From NCBI RefSeq assembly GCF_000423465.1, contig NZ_AUIA01000011.1:1-64000 (forward strand): DNA of 64,000 nucleotides. Direction: 5' to 3'. Positions 44,042-54,258 of this stretch are shown here, one piece after another. Position 1 is the first letter of the stretch; each line of letters starts with the position of its first letter. Made by a program: the position numbers and the translations under genes. The stretch is from Propionicicella superfundia DSM 22317. GTDB taxonomy: Bacteria > Actinomycetota > Actinomycetes > Propionibacteriales > Propionibacteriaceae. A model generated the notes under the pieces. That model saw only the letters and a program-made list of their open reading frames with translations. It did no database searches and was not told where the DNA came from.

Positions 44042-44129
44042 GCAGCGGCTCGGCCGCCACGAGACGGTGCCCGGCCGCATCTCGTCAGGCCCGCCGTCGG
44101 CCGCTACGCTCGCGAGGAAGGAGGCGGCT

Positions 44130-44717
44130 ATGCCGAAGATCGTTGACTATGCGCAGCGCAGGTCGGAGATCGTCGACGGGTTCCTCACCCTGATCGCGAA
44201 GGAGGGGTTGGCCAATGCGACATCGCGGTCGCTGGCCGACCACCTCGGGGTGTCCAACGGGGCTCTGTGGCGCTACTTCTCCGACAAGAACGACCTTCTC
44301 ACCGAGGCCAACGAGAAGGTCATCGAGAACACCCACAAACGGGCGCTGGAGGCGCTGGCCGACGTGCGGGGGGTCGAGGCCGTCGTCACGCTGGTGGAGG
44401 CCCTTCTCCCGCTGACCCCGATCTCCAAGGACGAGGCGCGGATCGTCGTCGGGTTCTGGGGGCTCGCGTCGTCCAGCCTCAGTGTCGAGCGGGTCGGCCG
44501 GCCCGAACTCGTGGAATGGGGCGGCATGCTGCGGTCCCTGCTCGACGAGGCGGTCTCGCTCGGGGAGCTGTCGCCGGATGCGCCGCTGGACGCCCTCGCG
44601 GCGATGTTCATGGCGCAGGTCGTGAACGCGCAGATCGAGTTCGTGTTCAAGGGCGACCTCGGCACCGACGACATGGCCGCTCCGGTGCGTGCGCTGCTGG
44701 ACGCCTTCCGTCCCTGA
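44130..44717 (+). CDS. TetR-family transcriptional regulator
   Basis: A 195-residue repressor. The N-terminal helix-turn-helix (A-T-S-R-S-L-A-D-H-L-G-V-S-N-G-A-L-W-R-Y-F) is at about residues 30-50, followed by a helical ligand domain containing E-A-R-I-V-V-G-F-W-G-L. AAGGAGG lies 6 bases before the ATG. It is upstream of and co-directional with the ABC-MoaF-amidohydrolase operon, separated by 426 bases, and is its probable regulator. The N-terminus resembles BetI/AcrR-type TetRs, but the ligand is unknown. Confidence 0.88.
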   Translation: MPKIVDYAQRRSEIVDGFLTLIAKEGLANATSRSLADHLGVSNGALWRYFSDKNDLLTEANEKVIENTHKRALEALADVRGVEAVVTLVEALLPLTPISKDEARIVVGFWGLASSSLSVERVGRPELVEWGGMLRSLLDEAVSLGELSPDAPLDALAAMFMAQVVNAQIEFVFKGDLGTDDMAAPVRALLDAFRP

Positions 44718-45143
44718 GTCCCCACGCCGCCACGCCGTGAGACGCCGACGTCGCGCGGCCCGTGGAGGCAAGGCGAAACACGTTCTTCACACGGACGCAA
44801 CTTTTCAGTGTACGTGCGCTCATTAACGTGTGCGTCATCGGAGCTTTCACGGGCGGGAGCACACGGGCGAGGCGGGGTCGAGGGGTGTTGAACCCCAGGG
44901 TCCGGTCGCCGTCTCGTGACTTCTGTCCGCAGGCCTGAAGCCTCCGATGGCGGTGGTGTCTCTTGCGGGACGCCCAAGGTCGCCACACGCCGAGAGGTCC
45001 GGGAGCCCGCGCTGCGGGCCGCCCCGGCACGCTCTGATCGATCCCCCCGACGGTCGGCGCGCATCCCGCCTCGTCCCTTCGTAACAGGAGTACGCCCTGC
45101 GGTCGTCAGGGCGTGCTCCGACACCGCACGAAAGGAACCGACC
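44718..45143 (+). promoter_or_regulatory. Intergenic control region of the ABC importer operon
   Basis: This is 426 bases without a gene. A locally A/T-rich stretch at 44776-44835 contains ACACGTT (44778-44784) and AACGTGT (44825-44831) in inverted orientation. It also has GGACGCAA and TGCGTCA, and is the best candidate for promoter and TetR operator. If so, the mRNA has a leader of about 300 bases. AAAGGAA at 45131-45137 is the ribosome site of the binding protein. Confidence 0.4.
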
Positions 45144-46121
45144 GTGTCGACCCGCACAAGACGCCTCGTGGCAGCCCTTGCCGCCCTGACGACCGGACTG
45201 GCGCTCACCGCCTGTTCGACTCCCGACTCACAGTCCTCCACGGCGACGGAGGGGTCGAAGGGCGCCCTCGCCTGGAGCTTCCCGACGCAGGACGTGAACA
45301 TCTGGAACTCCCAGCTCACGCTGATGAAACCGATCATCGAGGACGCCGGCTACGAGTTCCTCACCGACAGCCCCAACTTCGACGTCAAGACGCAGGTCAA
45401 CGACTGGGAGTCGTGGGTCGCACGCGGCGACGTCAAGGCGATCGGCGGCTTCCCGGCCGACGTCGACTCGGTCGTGGCCGTCACGGCCCAGGCGACGGCG
45501 GCGAACATCCCCGTCATCGGGTACGCCGTGAAGTGGGACGGCGTCGACTACGCCACCCTGATCTCCAACTACGACGCCGGGTACAGCGTCGGCAAGGCCG
45601 CCGGAGAGTGGATCGTCGCCACCTACGGGACGGAGAAGATCGACGTCGCGCTGCTCGCCGACACGACCTCCCAGCTCGGCCAGGACCAGCTCAAGGGCCT
45701 CAAGGAAGGCCTCGCCGCGACGGACGCGAGCATCACCGTGACCGACCTGGAGGCGAAGACCCGCGACGACGGGTACAAGCAGGCGCAGAGCAACCTCGTC
45801 GCGCACCCGAACACGGCCGTCTGGCTGGGGATCGGCGCCGACATGATCCACGGCGCCCGGCAGGCGCTCATCGACTCGGGCGTCTCGGCGACCGGAGGCA
45901 AGCACTACGTCAGCGCGACCGACGCCGACAACGAGGCGCTCGACCTCATCAAGACGGGCACCGACATGTGGCAGACGTCCTTCGCATGGAAGGCGGCCGA
46001 CCTCGCCGAGGCGAACGCCAAGCAGCTCATCTCTGCGGCCGAGGGGACGATCTCCGGAGACATCACCGTGGGCGTGACGCAGGTGACCAAGGACAATGTC
46101 GACGACTTCCGGACGGAGTGA
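45144..46121 (+). CDS. Substrate-binding lipoprotein of an Rbs-type ABC importer
   Basis: A 325-residue extracytoplasmic binding protein. The signal peptide ends in lipobox L-T-A-C (Cys24). The periplasmic-binding-protein-like type I fold begins A-L-A-W-S-F-P-T-Q-D-V-N-I-W, with G-G-F-P-A-D-V-D-S-V, A-A-N-I-P-V-I-G-Y and Y-V-S-A-T-D-A-D-N-E-A. The sugar-binding group is the closest fold, but the conserved aromatic pattern is not typical of ribose or xylose binders. The GTG start follows AAAGGAA. The ligand is probably not a plain pentose, given the downstream amidohydrolase. Confidence 0.87.
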   Translation: MSTRTRRLVAALAALTTGLALTACSTPDSQSSTATEGSKGALAWSFPTQDVNIWNSQLTLMKPIIEDAGYEFLTDSPNFDVKTQVNDWESWVARGDVKAIGGFPADVDSVVAVTAQATAANIPVIGYAVKWDGVDYATLISNYDAGYSVGKAAGEWIVATYGTEKIDVALLADTTSQLGQDQLKGLKEGLAATDASITVTDLEAKTRDDGYKQAQSNLVAHPNTAVWLGIGADMIHGARQALIDSGVSATGGKHYVSATDADNEALDLIKTGTDMWQTSFAWKAADLAEANAKQLISAAEGTISGDITVGVTQVTKDNVDDFRTE

Positions 46122-47697
46122 GGCCCGCCCGGCGGGGGAGGAGCCAGGAGGCTCTCTCCCCGCCGGCTCGGCCGGCCTCACCAACCCTCCGGGGACGCCA
46201 CCGCGGATCGCCTTCGCAGACGTCAGCAAGTACTTCGGGGCGACCGTCGCGCTCGACGGCGTGACCTTCGAGGTGGCGCCCGGCGAGATCGTCGGGCTCC
46301 TGGGGCACAACGGGGCGGGCAAGTCCACGCTGATCAACGTCGCGAGCGGCGCACTGCAGCCCTCCACCGGGCGCATGCTTCTCGACGGGCGGTTCATGGA
46401 CTCGCCCAGCCCGGCCGCCATGGCCGAGGCGGGGCTGTGCGTCGTGAGCCAGGTGCCCGCGCTCATCCCCGGCATCTCGATCCTGGACAACCTGTTTCTC
46501 GGCGACAAGCGGCGTTCGACCCGCGCCCAGCGGATCGAGCGCGCCCACGCCGCGCTGACCGAGGTCGGGCTCGGCCATCTGTCGCTGCGGACGATCGCGT
46601 CCCAGCTCTCCGTCGGGGAGCGCCAGCTCGTCGACCTGGCACGCGGGCTCGTCCGGGGCGACATCCGGATCCTGCTCCTGGACGAGCCGACGGCCGCCCT
46701 CGGCCTTCCCGAGACGGCCAATCTGCACCGCCTCGTCCGGGGATTCGCCGCCTCCGGGACAGCCGTCGTGTACGTCTCGCATCGGCTTCCCGACATCATG
46801 GACATCTGCTCGCGAGCCGTCGTCCTGAACGCCGGGGCGGTCGTCCTCGACGCCTCGATGGACGGCCTCTCGCTGGACGACCTCGCCGCGGCGCTGGCCC
46901 CCGGGTTCACGAAGGCCGAGTCCACCACGGCGACCCCCGGCGAGATCGTGCTCGGCGTCCACGACCCCGACCCCGACGGGCTCGAACTGGAGTTCCGGGC
47001 CGGGGAGGTCGTCGGGATCTTCGGCATGGCCGCAGGCATCGAGTTCGACATCCTGACGGCCGCCTTCGGTCTCGGCAGGAACCGGAAGACGACCGGCCTC
47101 ACGTTCGATCTGCACGGTCGGCCGTTCACTCCGCGCAGCCCTCGACAGGCCATCCGGGCGGGGGTCCACCTCGTCCCGGCGGACCGTGAGACCGACGGCC
47201 TCGCGCACAACCTGTCCGCCCGCGACAACGTGATGCTGCCCTGGTTCGGCTCCTATGCCCGCGCCGGTGCCATCGGCAGGACGACCGGGGTGGCCGCCTA
47301 CGAGGAGGGACGCACGCTGTTCAACGTGCAAGGACCGCCGGGGACCCACTCGATCGACGAGTTCAGCGGCGGCAACCGGCAGAAGCACCTCATCGCGCGC
47401 TGGACGCTCCCACGACGGCCGGAGCTGCTCCTGCTGCTGCAGCCCACCCAGGGGGTGGACGTCGGCGGCAAGAACGACATCATCCGGGCCGTCCAGGAGT
47501 ACGCCGCGCAGGGCATGTGCGTTGTCGTGGCGTCGTCGGAGTCCGACGAGATCATGCGCATGTGCCACCGCGCGTACGTGGTGTACGGCCATCGCCACGC
47601 GCTCATCCCGGCCGGCGCCGACATGGAGGGACAGCTTCTCTCGACCCTGCTGGCCCTGGCCGGCGACGCCGTCTCGACTGGAGGACAAGCCTCGTGA
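46096..47697 (+). CDS. Fused ATPase of an Rbs-type ABC importer
   Basis: A 533-residue double-ABC protein of the RbsA/MglA type. The first half has intact Walker A (G-H-N-G-A-G-K-S-T), signature L-S-V-G-E-R-Q and Walker B L-L-L-D-E-P-T. The second half has a degenerate P-loop (F-G-M-A-A-G-I), as in all RbsA proteins, and signature F-S-G-G-N-R-Q. Its Walker B reads L-L-L-L-Q-P-T, with both acidic residues lost. The ATG lies 26 bases inside the binding-protein gene. The ABC fold begins near residue 36 after a Gly/Pro-rich lead. Overlaps the permease by 4 bases. Confidence 0.9.
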   Translation: MSTTSGRSEARPAGEEPGGSLPAGSAGLTNPPGTPPRIAFADVSKYFGATVALDGVTFEVAPGEIVGLLGHNGAGKSTLINVASGALQPSTGRMLLDGRFMDSPSPAAMAEAGLCVVSQVPALIPGISILDNLFLGDKRRSTRAQRIERAHAALTEVGLGHLSLRTIASQLSVGERQLVDLARGLVRGDIRILLLDEPTAALGLPETANLHRLVRGFAASGTAVVYVSHRLPDIMDICSRAVVLNAGAVVLDASMDGLSLDDLAAALAPGFTKAESTTATPGEIVLGVHDPDPDGLELEFRAGEVVGIFGMAAGIEFDILTAAFGLGRNRKTTGLTFDLHGRPFTPRSPRQAIRAGVHLVPADRETDGLAHNLSARDNVMLPWFGSYARAGAIGRTTGVAAYEEGRTLFNVQGPPGTHSIDEFSGGNRQKHLIARWTLPRRPELLLLLQPTQGVDVGGKNDIIRAVQEYAAQGMCVVVASSESDEIMRMCHRAYVVYGHRHALIPAGADMEGQLLSTLLALAGDAVSTGGQAS

Positions 47698-48713
47698 AGA
47701 CACCCACATCCGAACAAGTGCGGCTGTTCCTCGTCCGCAACGGCGTGCTGTTCGCCCTCATCGCCCTGATCGCGGTGTTCGGCGTCCTCAACCCGCGGTT
47801 CCTGACGGTCCAGAACATCCAGACGATCCTGCTGCAGATCTCCGAGCTCGGGCTCATCGCTCTCCCGGTGGCGTTCATCGTGATGCAGGGCACGGTGGAC
47901 ATGTCGGTCGGCTCGGTCGCGACCCTGGCCGCCGTGGCGGGCGGCTACACGATGGTCGCGACGGGAAACCCCCTCGCGGGCGTCGCGGTCGGGCTCGCGG
48001 TGGGCGTCGCCGCCGGGGCGATCAACGGATTCCTCGTCGCGTGGGTCCGTCTCAATCCGTTCGTCGTGACCCTGGGCTTCCTCAGCGCCTGGGGCGGCCT
48101 GGCCCTGTTCCTCACCAACGGCAAGACCGTCTCGGGACTGCCCAAGTCCTTCACGGCGCTCGGGTCGCTGTCGGTGCTCGGGATCCGGCTGCAGATCATC
48201 CTGCTGATCCTCGCGATCGCGCTGGCCTGGTTCATCCTGGAGCACACGGCGCGCGGCCGGGAGATCCTCGCGGTCGGCGGAAGCATGCGCGCCTCTCACC
48301 TCATGGGCCTTCCCGTGGAGGGCATCAAGGTCTCCACCTACATCGTGTCGGGCGGGGTGGCGGCCTTCGTGGGCCTGCTGCTCGCCGCCAAGCTGGGCGC
48401 GGTCAGCCCCGTCGTCGGGCAGGGACTGGAAGTGGATGCCCTCACCGTCGTCCTGCTCGGCGGGGTGGCGTTCGAAGGGGGCTCGGGTCGCATCAGCGGC
48501 ATCGTCTACGGCCTGGTGTTCGTGGGCGTCCTCAAGAACGGGCTCGTGATCCTGGGCGTGTCGGCATACCTGCAGACCGTTCTCGTCGGCCTCACCCTCG
48601 TCGCGGCCGTCCTGCTCGACAAGACCATTCAGCAGGCGGTGGGGCGGGCCATCGCCACGCGGGGCCGCCGACAGGCCGCGGCCCAGCGACCCACCGCCGC
48701 CATCTCCGACTGA
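47694..48713 (+). CDS. Permease of an Rbs-type ABC importer
   Basis: A 339-residue BPD_transp_2 permease with about nine helices. Recognisable blocks are N-P-R-F-L-T-V-Q-N, M-S-V-G-S-V-A-T-L, T-A-R-G-R-E-I-L-A-V-G-G, and E-G-G-S-G-R-I-S-G. It would form the homodimeric channel for the adjacent binding protein and ATPase. GTG start overlapping the ATPase stop (GTGA), with GGAGG upstream. Confidence 0.92.
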   Translation: MKTPTSEQVRLFLVRNGVLFALIALIAVFGVLNPRFLTVQNIQTILLQISELGLIALPVAFIVMQGTVDMSVGSVATLAAVAGGYTMVATGNPLAGVAVGLAVGVAAGAINGFLVAWVRLNPFVVTLGFLSAWGGLALFLTNGKTVSGLPKSFTALGSLSVLGIRLQIILLILAIALAWFILEHTARGREILAVGGSMRASHLMGLPVEGIKVSTYIVSGGVAAFVGLLLAAKLGAVSPVVGQGLEVDALTVVLLGGVAFEGGSGRISGIVYGLVFVGVLKNGLVILGVSAYLQTVLVGLTLVAAVLLDKTIQQAVGRAIATRGRRQAAAQRPTAAISD

Positions 48714-48743
48714 CATCTCACCGGATCCCACAGGAGTATCAGC

Positions 48744-49589
48744 ATGACGACCCATGCGTTCAACGACACCGCCCACTGGCTGCCGCTCGATCAACTGGAG
48801 CCCGGGTTCGACGCCAACAAGGCGGCGACCTCGGCCCTGCTCGACGGGACGTCGATCTCGATCACGACCGGGGACGGGACCGTCATCGGCCACGACTTCG
48901 CCGGCGGGACGGTGACGTGGACCCTGACCCAGCCCGACGGCGGCCTGGACCTCGGCACCGACCCGTACGAGGCGTTCCAGGTGGCCGACGGCCTGTTCTA
49001 CGTCCAGTTCCACCATGCACGGACGCATCCGGAGGAGGCCGTCTCCGCGTTCTTCGACCTGTCCAACGGCGTCGCCCTGTGCGTCCTGTCGTTCATCGGG
49101 CCCGCCGGCGGTGACGGTGCGACCCGGGTGACCCAGCAGTTCGTCCCCGCCACCGTCAACGGCGCCTCCGACCGCGGGCCGCTGCCCGTCCCGACCGAGG
49201 ATCTCGTCGGGCGCAGGGTGTTGTGGCGTTACAGCGCGCAGCACGTCTACGAGCACTACTACCTGAACGACCTCTGGTACACGTGGCACTGCGTCACCGG
49301 CCCCGAGGGCGGTCAGGCCGACACCGACGAGCAGACCACCTACCGGCTCCGGCCGGGCATCTACGTGTTCGCGTGGCGCGAGAAGGTCATCCCCTGCGCG
49401 TCGGTCACGGTCGCCGACCACCGCGACGCCCTGGCGCTGCGATCGCACGGCGTCCTCTTCGGGCTCAACGAGGACGAGACCAGGCTCAGCCACTTCACCT
49501 TCGGCGCGCACGGCTCCCTCGTCGGCATCTCCGACCCCGTGGGCGCCCTCGAATCGACCGCTCGGCATTCCGAACAGAGGAGGAACTGA
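48744..49589 (+). CDS. MoaF-family protein
   Basis: A 281-residue soluble protein of two beta-rich halves. It matches the MoaF family: N-terminal half H-W-L-P-L-D-Q-L-E-P-G-F-D; C-terminal half V-L-W-R-Y-S-A-Q-H-V-Y-E-H-Y-Y-L-N and P-G-I-Y-V-F-A-W-R-E-K-V-I-P. MoaF genes are found near monoamine or aromatic catabolic operons, and the fold is calycin-like; the biochemical role is not established. It lies between the importer and the amidohydrolase with only one base before the latter, so it likely acts on or binds the imported compound. Confidence 0.82.
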   Translation: MTTHAFNDTAHWLPLDQLEPGFDANKAATSALLDGTSISITTGDGTVIGHDFAGGTVTWTLTQPDGGLDLGTDPYEAFQVADGLFYVQFHHARTHPEEAVSAFFDLSNGVALCVLSFIGPAGGDGATRVTQQFVPATVNGASDRGPLPVPTEDLVGRRVLWRYSAQHVYEHYYLNDLWYTWHCVTGPEGGQADTDEQTTYRLRPGIYVFAWREKVIPCASVTVADHRDALALRSHGVLFGLNEDETRLSHFTFGAHGSLVGISDPVGALESTARHSEQRRN

Positions 49590-49590
49590 C

Positions 49591-51243
49591 ATGGCACCCG
49601 ACACGATCTTCAGCAACGCCCGCGTGTACACCGGCGATGCGGCGCAACCGTGGGCGGAGGCCTTCGCCGTCGCGGACGGTCGCATCGTCGCCGTCGGCGA
49701 CGCGGCTGCCGCCGGCACCTGGACGGCGGAGGGGACGGCCTCGGTCGACCTGGGCGGGCGGTTCGTCATGCCGGGATTCGTGGACGCCCACAACCACTTC
49801 TGGCTGCAGGGGCGCACCGAGGCCTACGAATGCCCGATCGATCCGACGCTCGATCTCGACGGCGTCCTCGCCGCGATCCGGGCCGCCGTCGCGGACCTGC
49901 CCGCCGGCACGTGGGCCGTCATCAGCCCGTACAGCGCGGCCGTCGCGATGGAGATCGAACACGCCGACGTCCTGCGGCGACTCGACGAGGCGACAGGGAA
50001 CCACCCGGTCATGGTGCGGGAGTACAGCCGGCACAACCGGTGGGCGAACAGCGCGGCGCTGGCGGCCGCCGGGATCGGTCCGGACACGCCGCAACCCGCC
50101 GACGGGGTCATCGTCACCGACCCGGTCACCGGCGGGCTCACCGGCGTCCTGTACGAGGGTGCGGGGCTGCCGGTGGAGCATGCGTTCCTCGACTGGGCCG
50201 GCTACACCCCCGACGACTACCTCGCGATGGTCGCGGAGGGCATGCGGATCCTCAACAGCTACGGGATCACGGCCTGTCTCGACGCGGGGGCGTCGTGGGA
50301 GATGATGGTCGGCGCGAAGCGGCTCGACGAGACCGGCGGGATGACCGCGTGGGCCGTCAGCGGAATGCCCTTCTACGAGCAGATCTTCGGCTACCGGCTG
50401 ACCGGTCCCGGTCTGTTCGCCAAGGGCGCCGAGTGCCGCTCGCGGCACCATCGACCCGACTTCATCAAGGTCTTCCTGGACGGCATCCCGCCGGCCCGGA
50501 CGGCCGCGTTCTCCCGGCCGTACCTGCCCGCGCCCGGGGCGGCCGACGAGGACTTCTGCGGCGAGACGCTGTTCACCACCGATGCACTGGCGGAACTGCT
50601 CTCCGACGGGGCGCGCGACGGCCTGTCGGCGGTCGTCCACTGCACGGGCGACGGCTCCGTCCACACGGCTCTGGACGCCATCGAGCGGGTGCGTGCCGCC
50701 GGGTTCACCGAGCCCAGCTACCACATCTCGCACTGCCAGTTCATCCAGCCCGCCGACATCGCGCGCTTCGCGGAGTTGGACGTCGTGGCCGAGATCTCTC
50801 CCTACTACTGGGTCCCGGGGCCGGTGCCGACGGCGATCGCGAGCGTCGTCCCGGCCGAGATCTCCGACCACATCCATCCGAATCGCGACCTCGCGGACGC
50901 CGGGGTGAAGATCGTGGTCGGCTCCGATTGGCCGTGCAGCGACACGCCCGACGCGTGGTACGCCATCCATGGGCTGGTCACCCGGACCGATCCGCTGGGC
51001 CTGGCCCCGGGCGCGTTGACCCCCGAGCAGGCGCTGACGCTGGAGGAGGCCATCGCGGCCTGTACCTCGGAGGCGGCCGACTCGCTCGGGCTGGGGACGG
51101 AGACCGGGTCGCTGGCGGCGGGCAAGTCGGCGGACTTCATCGTCCTCGACCGCGACCCCTTCGAGATCGAGCCGACCGAGCTGTCCCACGTGACGGTGAC
51201 GGAGACCTGGTTCGAGGGCAGGCGGGTCTTCGAGCGGGCGTGA
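49591..51243 (+). CDS. YtcJ-type amidohydrolase
   Basis: A 550-residue amidohydrolase-superfamily enzyme (amidohydrolase_3). N-terminal strand I-F-S-N-A-R-V-Y-T-G-D is followed by the metal motif V-D-A-H-N-H-F. F-I-K-V-F-L-D-G-I, the metal histidines in V-V-H-C-T-G-D-G and S-H-C-Q-F-I, and the catalytic Asp in V-G-S-D-W-P follow. Relatives hydrolyse cyclic or exocyclic amides and N-formyl groups, but substrate is poorly predicted. No signal peptide: it works on the compound after import. It is the terminal gene of the TetR-ABC-MoaF cluster. Confidence 0.9.
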   Translation: MAPDTIFSNARVYTGDAAQPWAEAFAVADGRIVAVGDAAAAGTWTAEGTASVDLGGRFVMPGFVDAHNHFWLQGRTEAYECPIDPTLDLDGVLAAIRAAVADLPAGTWAVISPYSAAVAMEIEHADVLRRLDEATGNHPVMVREYSRHNRWANSAALAAAGIGPDTPQPADGVIVTDPVTGGLTGVLYEGAGLPVEHAFLDWAGYTPDDYLAMVAEGMRILNSYGITACLDAGASWEMMVGAKRLDETGGMTAWAVSGMPFYEQIFGYRLTGPGLFAKGAECRSRHHRPDFIKVFLDGIPPARTAAFSRPYLPAPGAADEDFCGETLFTTDALAELLSDGARDGLSAVVHCTGDGSVHTALDAIERVRAAGFTEPSYHISHCQFIQPADIARFAELDVVAEISPYYWVPGPVPTAIASVVPAEISDHIHPNRDLADAGVKIVVGSDWPCSDTPDAWYAIHGLVTRTDPLGLAPGALTPEQALTLEEAIAACTSEAADSLGLGTETGSLAAGKSADFIVLDRDPFEIEPTELSHVTVTETWFEGRRVFERA

Positions 51244-51355
51244 CACCCGCTGGGACGTCCCGGCCCGGGGTCCGGCCGCCACCCCTGCCCGCGCAGCAAC
51301 GCCGCCCCGGGCGTGGCGAGCGGGCGACGTGGTGCGCGAGCACCGCGGGAAGCGG

Positions 51356-53890
51356 TCAGGACGGATCCAGGAGGTGCCGTTCCGCCTCGGCGACGTCCTC
51401 GTCGAACGGATTGGACGGAACCGTGGCGCGGATCACCGAGCCGTCCTCGCGGACGGTGCCCTCGATGTCGCTCACCAGCGGACGTCCCTCCAGCAGCCGC
51501 GGCTGCTCCACGGCGACGACGAGCGGGACGCCGCGAGTGACCTCGAGCGGGCGACCCTGCACGGTGATCGGCAGGGAGGCGGCGTCGCCGGTCTCCAGCG
51601 TGAACGTGATCGTGTCCCGTTCGACCCGCACCCGCAGGCGATTGCCGTGGATGGTGAGCCGGTAGGTGAGCGCTGCCCAGTCGTCGGGCAGACGCGGGTC
51701 GAAGCTCCACACGCCGAGGTAGTCGCGCATCCCGCCGAATCCGGCGACGAGCGCATTCCAGACACCTCCGAGCGACGCGACGTGGACCCCGGCGTCGGTG
51801 TTGCGATGCAGGTCGGCGAGGTCCACGAAGACGGCGGTGCGGAAGTACCCGAGCGCGAGGTCGGCGTACCCCACCTCGGCGGCGATGATCGACTGCACGA
51901 CGGAGGACAGGGTCGAGTCGCCTGTCGTCAGCGGGTCGTAGTACTCGAAGTCGGCCCGTTTCTCCTCCAGCGTGAACTCGTCGCCCTGCAGGTAGAGGGC
52001 GAGAACCACGTCGGCCTGCTTGAGCACCTGGTGCCGGTAGATCACCAGCGGGTGATAGTGCAGCAGCAGGGGGCGCTTGTCGGCCGGGGTGTTCTGCAGA
52101 TCCCACAGTTCCTTCGACAGGAAGTCGTCGTCCTGCGGGTGGATGCCGAGGCGGTCGTCGAACGGCACGTGCATGGATTCGGCGATGCGGGAGAACTCGG
52201 TGATCTCGTCCTCGGTGAGCGACAGCCGCTGCCGCGCGCTGCGGTACGCCGCGGCATCGTGGCCGGCCAGCCAGCGCAGATTGCGGACGGCGGCCCGCAG
52301 GTTGGCGCGGGCCATCACGTTGGTGAACAGGTTGTCGTTGACGACGGCGGTGTACTCGTCGGGTCCGGTCACGCCGTGGATGTGGAACTCCTCGGAGCCG
52401 GAGTCACCGTCGATGCGGCGCCAGAAGCCCAGGTCGGCCCACAGCCGGGCCGTCTCGACGAGGATGTCGATGCCCTCCCGGGCCAGGAAGTCGCGGTCGC
52501 CGGACGCCGCGACGTATTGCGACAGCGCGTGCGAGATGTCGGCATCGATGTGGTACTGGGCCGTTCCGGCGGCGTAGTACGCCGAGGCCTCCTCGCCGTT
52601 GATCGTGCGCCACGGGTACAGGGCGCCCCGCTGGTTGACGCTGACGGCGCGGCGGCGGGCGGCGTCCAGCATCGTGTAGCGGAAGCGCAGCCCGTTGCGG
52701 GCGAAGGAGGGCGACGTGTAGGTGAGGAAGGGAAGGGCGTAGATCTCGGTGTCCCAGAAGTAGTGTCCGTCGTAGCCCGAGCCGGTCTGGCCCTTCGCGG
52801 GGATGCCGGCGCCCTCTGCGCGCGCGGAGGCCTGGATGAGCTGGAACAGGTTCCAGCGCACCGCCTGCTGCAGTTCGGGCTGGTCGGCGATCTCGACGTC
52901 GCTGCGCTCCCAGAAGTCGTCCAGCCAGGCGCGCTGCCGGGCGAAGAGCGCGGCGGTCCCGGAGTCCTTCGCCCGGTCGAGCGTGCGGCGGCAGCGATCG
53001 ACGAGTTCCAGCGGCGGGACCACCCTGGAGGTGTGGTAGCTGACCGTCTTCGTGACCCGCGTCGTGGTGCCCGCCGTGCCGTGGATGCGCCACACGTACT
53101 TGGCGACATCGTCGGAGACCTGGGTCCGGACCTCGTAGTCGTCGGAGGTCTCGATGGTGTGGTCGGCGGCCACGGCGAGCGTCATCCCCGACGCGGCGAC
53201 GCGGTATCCGAGCACCGACCGTCCGCCGCCCTCCCATTTGGAGACCGGTTCCAGGACGCGCCCGGCCAGGTTCGCCGCGCGTCGCGGGTCGAATCCCGTC
53301 CCCATCGCCTCGGCTCGCACGTGGAACTCGTCCTGCCCGTCCTGCCGGTTGAGGATCTCGCAGCTCACCACGAGCGGCGCGTCGGCGTCGAGCAGGGTGA
53401 TCTCGTAGTCCATGACCACCAGGTGCCGTTCGGAGAACGACACCATCCGCCGCGAGCGGAGCTGGACGTGTTTGCCGGACGGCGTCCGCCAGGTGAGCTC
53501 GCGCGTCAGCACCCCGTCGCGGAACGACAGCGACCGCTCGTAATGCTGCAGGTCGGCGACGCTCAGCAGCAGGGGCTCGTCGTCGACGTACAGCCGCATG
53601 ACCTTCGCGTCGGGGGCGTTGACGATGGTCTGCCCCACCTTGGCGAAGCCGAACGCCTCCTCCGCGTGATGGATCGGCCACACCTCGTGCAGGCCGTTGA
53701 CGAAGGTGCCGTGAGCGAAGGAGTCGCGGCCCTCCTCGACGTTGCCGCGCAGGCCGATGTAGCCGTTGGCGACGGAGAAGAGGGACTCGGTGACGCCCAG
53801 GTCACGGGCGTCGAAGCGGATTTCGCGCAAGGCCCACGGGTCGACCGGGAAGCGGGTCCGGTCGAGGGGGTCGGCCTTCGCCGGCCTCAC
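51356..53890 (-). CDS. Glycoside hydrolase family 65 protein (disaccharide phosphorylase or hydrolase)
   Basis: An 844-residue GH65 enzyme. The N-terminal beta-sandwich (about 1-290) leads by helical linkers into an (alpha/alpha)6 barrel with W-D-T-E-I-Y-A-L-P-F. The catalytic acid Glu is in the G-P-D-E-Y-T motif, and Q-Y-H-I-D-A-D-I appears in the barrel. H-Y-H-P-L-V-I-Y-R-H-Q-V-L-K-Q-A-D-V resembles the phosphate-binding region. A C-terminal beta-domain follows. The family phosphorolyses maltose, trehalose, kojibiose or nigerose; which one is not decidable here. No beta-phosphoglucomutase lies beside it, unlike many GH65 phosphorylase operons. Confidence 0.88.
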   Translation of the reverse strand: MRPAKADPLDRTRFPVDPWALREIRFDARDLGVTESLFSVANGYIGLRGNVEEGRDSFAHGTFVNGLHEVWPIHHAEEAFGFAKVGQTIVNAPDAKVMRLYVDDEPLLLSVADLQHYERSLSFRDGVLTRELTWRTPSGKHVQLRSRRMVSFSERHLVVMDYEITLLDADAPLVVSCEILNRQDGQDEFHVRAEAMGTGFDPRRAANLAGRVLEPVSKWEGGGRSVLGYRVAASGMTLAVAADHTIETSDDYEVRTQVSDDVAKYVWRIHGTAGTTTRVTKTVSYHTSRVVPPLELVDRCRRTLDRAKDSGTAALFARQRAWLDDFWERSDVEIADQPELQQAVRWNLFQLIQASARAEGAGIPAKGQTGSGYDGHYFWDTEIYALPFLTYTSPSFARNGLRFRYTMLDAARRRAVSVNQRGALYPWRTINGEEASAYYAAGTAQYHIDADISHALSQYVAASGDRDFLAREGIDILVETARLWADLGFWRRIDGDSGSEEFHIHGVTGPDEYTAVVNDNLFTNVMARANLRAAVRNLRWLAGHDAAAYRSARQRLSLTEDEITEFSRIAESMHVPFDDRLGIHPQDDDFLSKELWDLQNTPADKRPLLLHYHPLVIYRHQVLKQADVVLALYLQGDEFTLEEKRADFEYYDPLTTGDSTLSSVVQSIIAAEVGYADLALGYFRTAVFVDLADLHRNTDAGVHVASLGGVWNALVAGFGGMRDYLGVWSFDPRLPDDWAALTYRLTIHGNRLRVRVERDTITFTLETGDAASLPITVQGRPLEVTRGVPLVVAVEQPRLLEGRPLVSDIEGTVREDGSVIRATVPSNPFDEDVAEAERHLLDPS

Positions 53891-54258
53891 GAGTCGCTCC
53901 GGCGCGTGCCGTGGGCTCGTCGGCCGAGAGCGGACGGTGGTACTGCGGTCACGAGGCCCCTCTTCTCGGTTGGTGCTGCGCAGAGACTACCCCGCGGATC
54001 CCCTGCCGCAGAAGGTGACCCGCGCGCGTCGGATCGCGGAACGGGGGAGCGCCGCCTCGAGGGGATGGCCCGTCGCGGAGCCGGGGCGCACCGGCGTCTC
54101 GGCGAGGCGGGATTCCCGCGGAGTCCGGCCCGCTGTGAACCTGTCGTCCGCGGTCGTGCCCGCCGGGTCCGCCCCTAAGATGGGCACCGCCGTGGCTGGG
54201 CGATCGAGCACAGGCAGGGCAGGATGCGGCGGACGATTCACGGACGTGGGAGCGGCGG
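53891..54258 (+). promoter_or_regulatory. Intergenic region between GH65 and folD
   Basis: No gene is seen in these 368 bases. The right end holds a -10-like TAAGAT at 54176-54181 and a GC-rich leader to folD. The left end carries the GH65 promoter on the minus strand. GC content is ordinary. Confidence 0.4.

Follow-up and report, generated by a model that had tools for sequence, protein, structure and literature searches.

MoaF is known from the moa regulon of Klebsiella aerogenes (moaEF, atsBA, maoCA, tyn), where it follows MoaE and the arylsulfatase genes in the order atsBA-moaE-moaF. There, moaEF are reported to be part of the monoamine regulon, in a context of tyramine, dopamine, octopamine and norepinephrine (PMC6813237). 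Here we analyze six genes at positions 44130-51243 of a 64,000-nucleotide stretch of Propionicicella superfundia DSM 22317 (contig NZ_AUIA01000011.1, positions 1 to 64,000; hereafter the window), which encode a TetR-family regulator, an Rbs-type ABC importer, a MoaF protein and a YtcJ-type amidohydrolase. The window protein is a member of the MoaF family, whose relatives share with the Klebsiella regulon short-chain dehydrogenase/reductase (SDR), permease, amine oxidase and sulfatase partners. Unlike that regulon, however, the window operon contains no MoaE-type SDR, amine oxidase or sulfatase, and its MoaF is paired with YtcJ and the importer.

Two other kinds of cluster are also close to it. 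In Microbacterium, Agromyces, Leifsonia and Amycolatopsis, MoaF is followed by YtcJ (43-57% identical) with almost no gap, as in the window, but these clusters carry a Liv-type importer or an APC permease together with SDRs, copper amine oxidase, GMC and aldehyde dehydrogenase, so that the window version is stripped down in comparison and has a different importer. Bifidobacterium tibiigranuli (locus L045) has an importer of the same subfamily (substrate-binding protein 45% identical, ATPase 43%, permease 55%) with MoaF and YtcJ in one cluster, but its gene order is MoaF-SDR-binding protein-ATPase-permease-YtcJ and it adds an APH kinase, SDRs, a zinc-dependent alcohol dehydrogenase and a class III aminotransferase.

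We propose that the window operon was acquired laterally and that it serves, probably under the control of TetR, to take up and degrade a monoamine that is aromatic and probably phenolic (tyramine, octopamine or catecholamine type), or its N-acyl form; we put the chance that this reading is right at about even. What the sequences show is the gene content, the conserved pairing of MoaF with YtcJ, the contexts of the clusters, the presence of intact catalytic residues and the genomic insertion, whereas the exact substrate, the order of the enzymes, the reaction of MoaF and the control by TetR are inferred.

The MoaF-YtcJ pair, its contexts and the rarity of MoaF

The pairing was examined in 52 loci that had been retrieved by MoaF alone, YtcJ having played no part in their selection. 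YtcJ is the next same-strand gene 3' of MoaF in 48 of them, with a median gap of 2 bp; in the window YtcJ likewise lies directly downstream on the same strand, 1 bp away. The paired loci range over Microbacteriaceae, Pseudonocardiaceae and Jiangellaceae, and their YtcJ proteins are 43-55% identical to that of the window (best segment). MoaF-YtcJ is thus a conserved unit across several actinobacterial families, while the complete six-gene set is not conserved. Gene-order conservation, which the first-pass annotation had named as one test of its proposal, therefore gives a split answer, the order of all six genes being rare and the MoaF-YtcJ adjacency widespread.

Looking more broadly at 68 MoaF loci, which are not phylogenetically independent, we find as neighbors SDR (62), YtcJ (50), a Liv importer (about 39), APC permease (35), copper amine oxidase (30), AraC (28), NTF2 (24), GMC (20), aldehyde dehydrogenase (15) and sulfatase (13). 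For the SDRs, searches against the PDB returned generic SDRs only and no hint of a substrate. In Rhizobium, Agrobacterium and Roseateles, SDR-MoaF-NTF2 and a Liv importer lie within or near hpa genes for 4-hydroxyphenylacetate/homoprotocatechuate; aldehyde dehydrogenase is present in these clusters, and several add GMC, APH kinase and class III aminotransferases. Relatives of YtcJ turn up in such surroundings even at a distance from MoaF: on P. aurescens pTC2 one (41%) is near copper amine oxidase and hpaE/hpaI, with MoaF 27 kb away, and in Roseateles, where MoaF is about 15 kb away, one (40%) adjoins aldehyde dehydrogenase and APC permease. Because MoaF recurs in hpa, moaEF and amine-oxidase contexts, the window system most likely takes up an aromatic monoamine, either free or N-acylated, rather than a generic amide, ureide or nucleoside. 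Among the four cargoes entertained earlier, amide, cyclic ureide, amine and nucleoside-like compound, the comparative evidence favors the amine and lends no support to the cyclic ureide or the nucleoside-like compound. Nor is MoaF as hard to place as had been thought, since it is found, in more than one phylum, within clusters for aromatic-amine catabolism and has a C-terminal domain resembling phenolic acid decarboxylase (PAD).

Two Rhizobium plasmid loci (L098, L099) carry SDR-MoaF-NTF2 inside complete homoprotocatechuate clusters. In L099 these are joined by an APH kinase and a pair of class III aminotransferases, a gene set that suggests a kinase and phospho-lyase route for amino alcohols.

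The operon was probably gained laterally, since purH runs nearly into folD in most relatives examined and here 10.2 kb lie between the two (44042-54258), holding the operon and a GH65 gene. In those relatives folD mostly follows purH soon, at 8-30 bp in several (e.g. L123, L124, L125, L128); some carry different and smaller inserts at this place (about 0.7-2.6 kb), and some show no folD match. MoaF is rare: out of 392 genomes from the order, 4 score above the family cut-off, as do 4 out of 396 from the phylum, and a homologue of the window protein is absent from all 56 relatives. The importer is rarer than MoaF: no permease match at E < 1e-68 was found in 394 other genomes of the class, and among ten genomes with MoaF loci the importer is present only in B. 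tibiigranuli (permease 58%), itself the sole MoaF carrier among 112 Bifidobacterium genomes. In the tree, the window MoaF is sister to the B. tibiigranuli MoaF (support 89/84).

Import, hydrolysis and the possible chemistry of MoaF

All six open reading frames are intact and the Pfam domain calls agree with the first-pass reading, so that the combination of a one-ligand Rbs-type importer with MoaF and a YtcJ hydrolase is borne out. The importer is Rbs-type (CUT2-like) by its Peripla_BP_4 binding protein, its two-domain ATPase, of which the second nucleotide-binding domain has a degenerate Walker A, and its BPD_transp_2 permease. The nearest relative found for it is that of B. tibiigranuli, the binding protein being 43-45% identical to the protein there and the permease 55-58% identical to that of this species only, while the ATPase (43%) otherwise reaches at most 39% among the matches listed in 391 other genomes of the order. 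The binding protein has a sugar-type fold; a plasmid search with it gave one weak match only. The Asp89-Arg90 pair of RbsB, which we take to be sugar-binding, aligns with Ala-Val in the window protein, and this speaks against ribose as the ligand and agrees with the earlier view that a simple sugar is an improbable cargo. Nor does the NCBIfam RbsB model mark it as part of a ribose importer of the RbsABC kind, the score of 20.6 lying far under the cut-off of 337. No NCBIfam equivalog stood above its cut-off for any of the six proteins among the matches listed.

The metal site of YtcJ is intact and conserved (H67, H69, K293, H350, H381 and D446, i.e. HxH, Lys, His, His and Asp), the ligand roles being assigned by superfamily motif. 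The YtcJ-type family includes N-substituted formamide deformylase (NfdA) and a metal-dependent bile salt hydrolase, both amide hydrolases (PMC13081902). The window enzyme shares with them the Amidohydro_3 domain and the six metal-site residues, although it is likened to them by family rather than by comparison with the NfdA sequence, and the solved relatives are distant. By this analogy, the simplest role for YtcJ would be amide cleavage of an N-acyl amine.

What might MoaF do? Both halves of the family are recognized with high scores (PF10703 and PF17409, 92.5 and 139.1 bits against cut-offs of 23.3 and 22.1), and the structure model (pLDDT 90) consists of two beta-barrels. Its best Foldseek match in the PDB is 4q51, an uncharacterized MoaF, followed mainly by PADs. 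In PAD, the phenol is bound by Tyr11 and Tyr13 and the carboxylate by Arg41, with Glu64 serving as the acid (PMC10176493, PMC10915792); PADs also hydrate hydroxystyrenes via a quinone methide (PMC5488193). The C-terminal domain of MoaF is homologous to this barrel and keeps its Tyr13, Tyr19 and Glu64 as Y163, Y169 and E213, which are among eleven residues invariant across 84 MoaF sequences (84/84). Unlike PAD, MoaF is a tandem barrel, and the Arg41 position is L, H or Q in all 84, never Arg, with Gln in the window, whose MoaF does not have the complete catalytic set (Tyr11, Tyr13, Arg41, Glu64). Since Tyr13 and Glu64 are kept, Arg41 is not, and PADs can hydrate hydroxystyrenes, hydration or dehydration on the phenol side is a reasonable proposal, and a cofactor-free lyase or dehydratase acting on a phenolic amine would fit the residues.

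A molybdenum cofactor role for MoaF was also considered and rejected, there being no moaABCDE or mog neighbors in the contexts examined. PDB 4q51 and plasmid annotations label the protein "molybdenum cofactor biosynthesis F"; the label looks wrong, a clash of two moa symbols in which this one came from the monoamine regulon.

In the working we propose, the lipoprotein binding protein and the ATPase-permease pair would import the compound, YtcJ as a metal-dependent hydrolase would strip an N-acyl or N-formyl group to leave the free amine, and MoaF would act on the latter as a cofactor-free acid-base lyase of the PAD type. For example, a beta-hydroxy phenethylamine might be dehydrated via a quinone methide to an enamine and hence to arylacetaldehyde and ammonia, the aldehyde being finished by general aldehyde dehydrogenases. 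Tentatively, and at a level of belief well short of that given to the cassette as a whole, we would go further and suggest that MoaF is a cofactor-free dehydratase or deaminating lyase of phenolic beta-hydroxyamines (octopamine, synephrine or noradrenaline type) using PAD-like quinone-methide chemistry, and the operon a minimal import-deacylate-dehydrate module. MoaF would then supply a gene for EC 4.2.1.87/88, an activity long described biochemically that to our knowledge has no assigned sequence. Nothing relevant turned up in the literature searched on octopamine, synephrine or phenylephrine dehydratase genes.

Points against and alternative readings

Several observations weigh against the proposed aromatic-amine cassette. 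The similarity of MoaF to PAD is moderate (E about 1e-3, TM about 0.5 on target), and the position of PAD Tyr11 is Trp in most MoaFs, the window included, which weakens the argument for a phenol. The usual partners are missing: of the three partner families covered genome-wide, copper amine oxidase (PF01179; flavin amine oxidase was not searched) and HpaD are both absent, and the nearest copy of the partner SDR is only 38% identical. The YtcJ of B. tibiigranuli is only 34% identical to that of the window. The structure model of the binding protein, made from two sequences, has a pLDDT of 52 and was not used, so that it lends no ligand support. Finally, MoaF and YtcJ need not act in sequence, since four of the 52 MoaF loci (L015, L028, L043, L045) have no adjacent YtcJ.

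Those four loci also lend something to a different order of events, in which a free arylethanolamine is imported, MoaF acts first and YtcJ then serves as hydrolase or deaminase on the MoaF product (an imine or enamine, a lactam or a formamide). YtcJ does come after MoaF in the operon, and the Amidohydro superfamily includes deaminases (weak matches). However, imines and enamines hydrolyze readily unaided, and no characterized relative with such an activity was among the matches found, so that we regard this order as rather unlikely.

The missing partners, together with an importer class unlike that of all MoaF-YtcJ clusters except the one in B. tibiigranuli, could instead mean that the importer was swapped and the aromatic-amine link not carried over, a generic amide, cyclic ureide or nucleoside-like cargo being hydrolyzed. 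But MoaF and YtcJ have been retained together and intact, and the context of MoaF is aromatic-amine related in Actinomycetota and Pseudomonadota alike; we consider a generic cargo distinctly improbable.

The homology of the C-terminal domain to PAD and the amidohydrolase partner would also suit a use of phenolamides, YtcJ splitting a hydroxycinnamoyl amide and MoaF decarboxylating the freed hydroxycinnamic acid as a true PAD. Against this, the carboxylate-holding arginine is never found in MoaF, and the recurrent neighbors are monoamine genes, not cinnamate genes, which makes it very unlikely. Finally, a sugar or glycoside system, in which importer and GH65 belong together and MoaF and YtcJ modify the aglycone, has in its favor the shared 10.2-kb insertion and the fold of the binding protein, but it is very unlikely with GH65 on the opposite strand, kinase and isomerase missing, the Asp-Arg pair lost and the identified neighbors of the B. 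tibiigranuli importer including no GH65.

Gene layout and significance

The features are collected in Table 1. From the binding protein to YtcJ the genes are tightly packed, with overlaps of 26 and 4 bp followed by gaps of 30 and 1 bp, while 426 bp separate TetR from the binding protein gene, and TetR may form its own transcription unit. An imperfect inverted repeat with 13-nt arms, GGAGTACGCCCTG-7-CAGGGCGTGCTCC, may serve as a TetR operator or form a leader hairpin. The operon encodes neither a sugar kinase nor an isomerase, as had been noted at first pass; GH65 however converges on it, with a function that is probably separate.

Table 1. Features of the operon and its 3' neighbor (window positions)
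Position	Strand	Feature	Remarks
44130..44717	+	TetR-family regulator, TetR_N and BetI-like C domain	PF00440 2.7e-9, PF13977 1.1e-8
45087..45119		Imperfect inverted repeat just 5' of the binding protein gene	
45144..46121	+	Lipoprotein substrate-binding protein, Peripla_BP_4, RbsB-like	GTG start, lipobox ..LTAC
46096..47697	+	Two-domain ABC ATPase (ABC_tran), Rbs/Ara type	Reading frame from 46096, true start uncertain
47694..48713	+	ABC permease BPD_transp_2, AraH/RbsC-like	GTG start
48744..49589	+	MoaF, tandem beta-barrel, Pfam MoaF N and C	
49591..51243	+	YtcJ-type Amidohydro_3 metal hydrolase	PF07969 match, 309 bits
51356..53890	-	GH65 glycoside phosphorylase/hydrolase family protein	Convergent with operon

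Third-position GC is 0.90-0.94 in the four genes detected by the scan. Rfam gave no match across 43.9-51.5 kb, a sigma-70 promoter scan found none, and terminator matches were at chance level. Elsewhere in the window, GC drops to 0.57 with strong GC skew at positions 1-2000, as expected for rRNA genes.

Ever since the description of the monoamine regulon, the MoaF family has lacked a known reaction, and MoaF is often mislabeled as a molybdenum cofactor protein. The presence of MoaF-YtcJ in aromatic-amine clusters, together with the PAD-like site, yields a concrete and cheap list of assays for the function of MoaF. Since the window operon is stripped of most other cluster enzymes, with two enzymes and one importer, it offers a clean test system.

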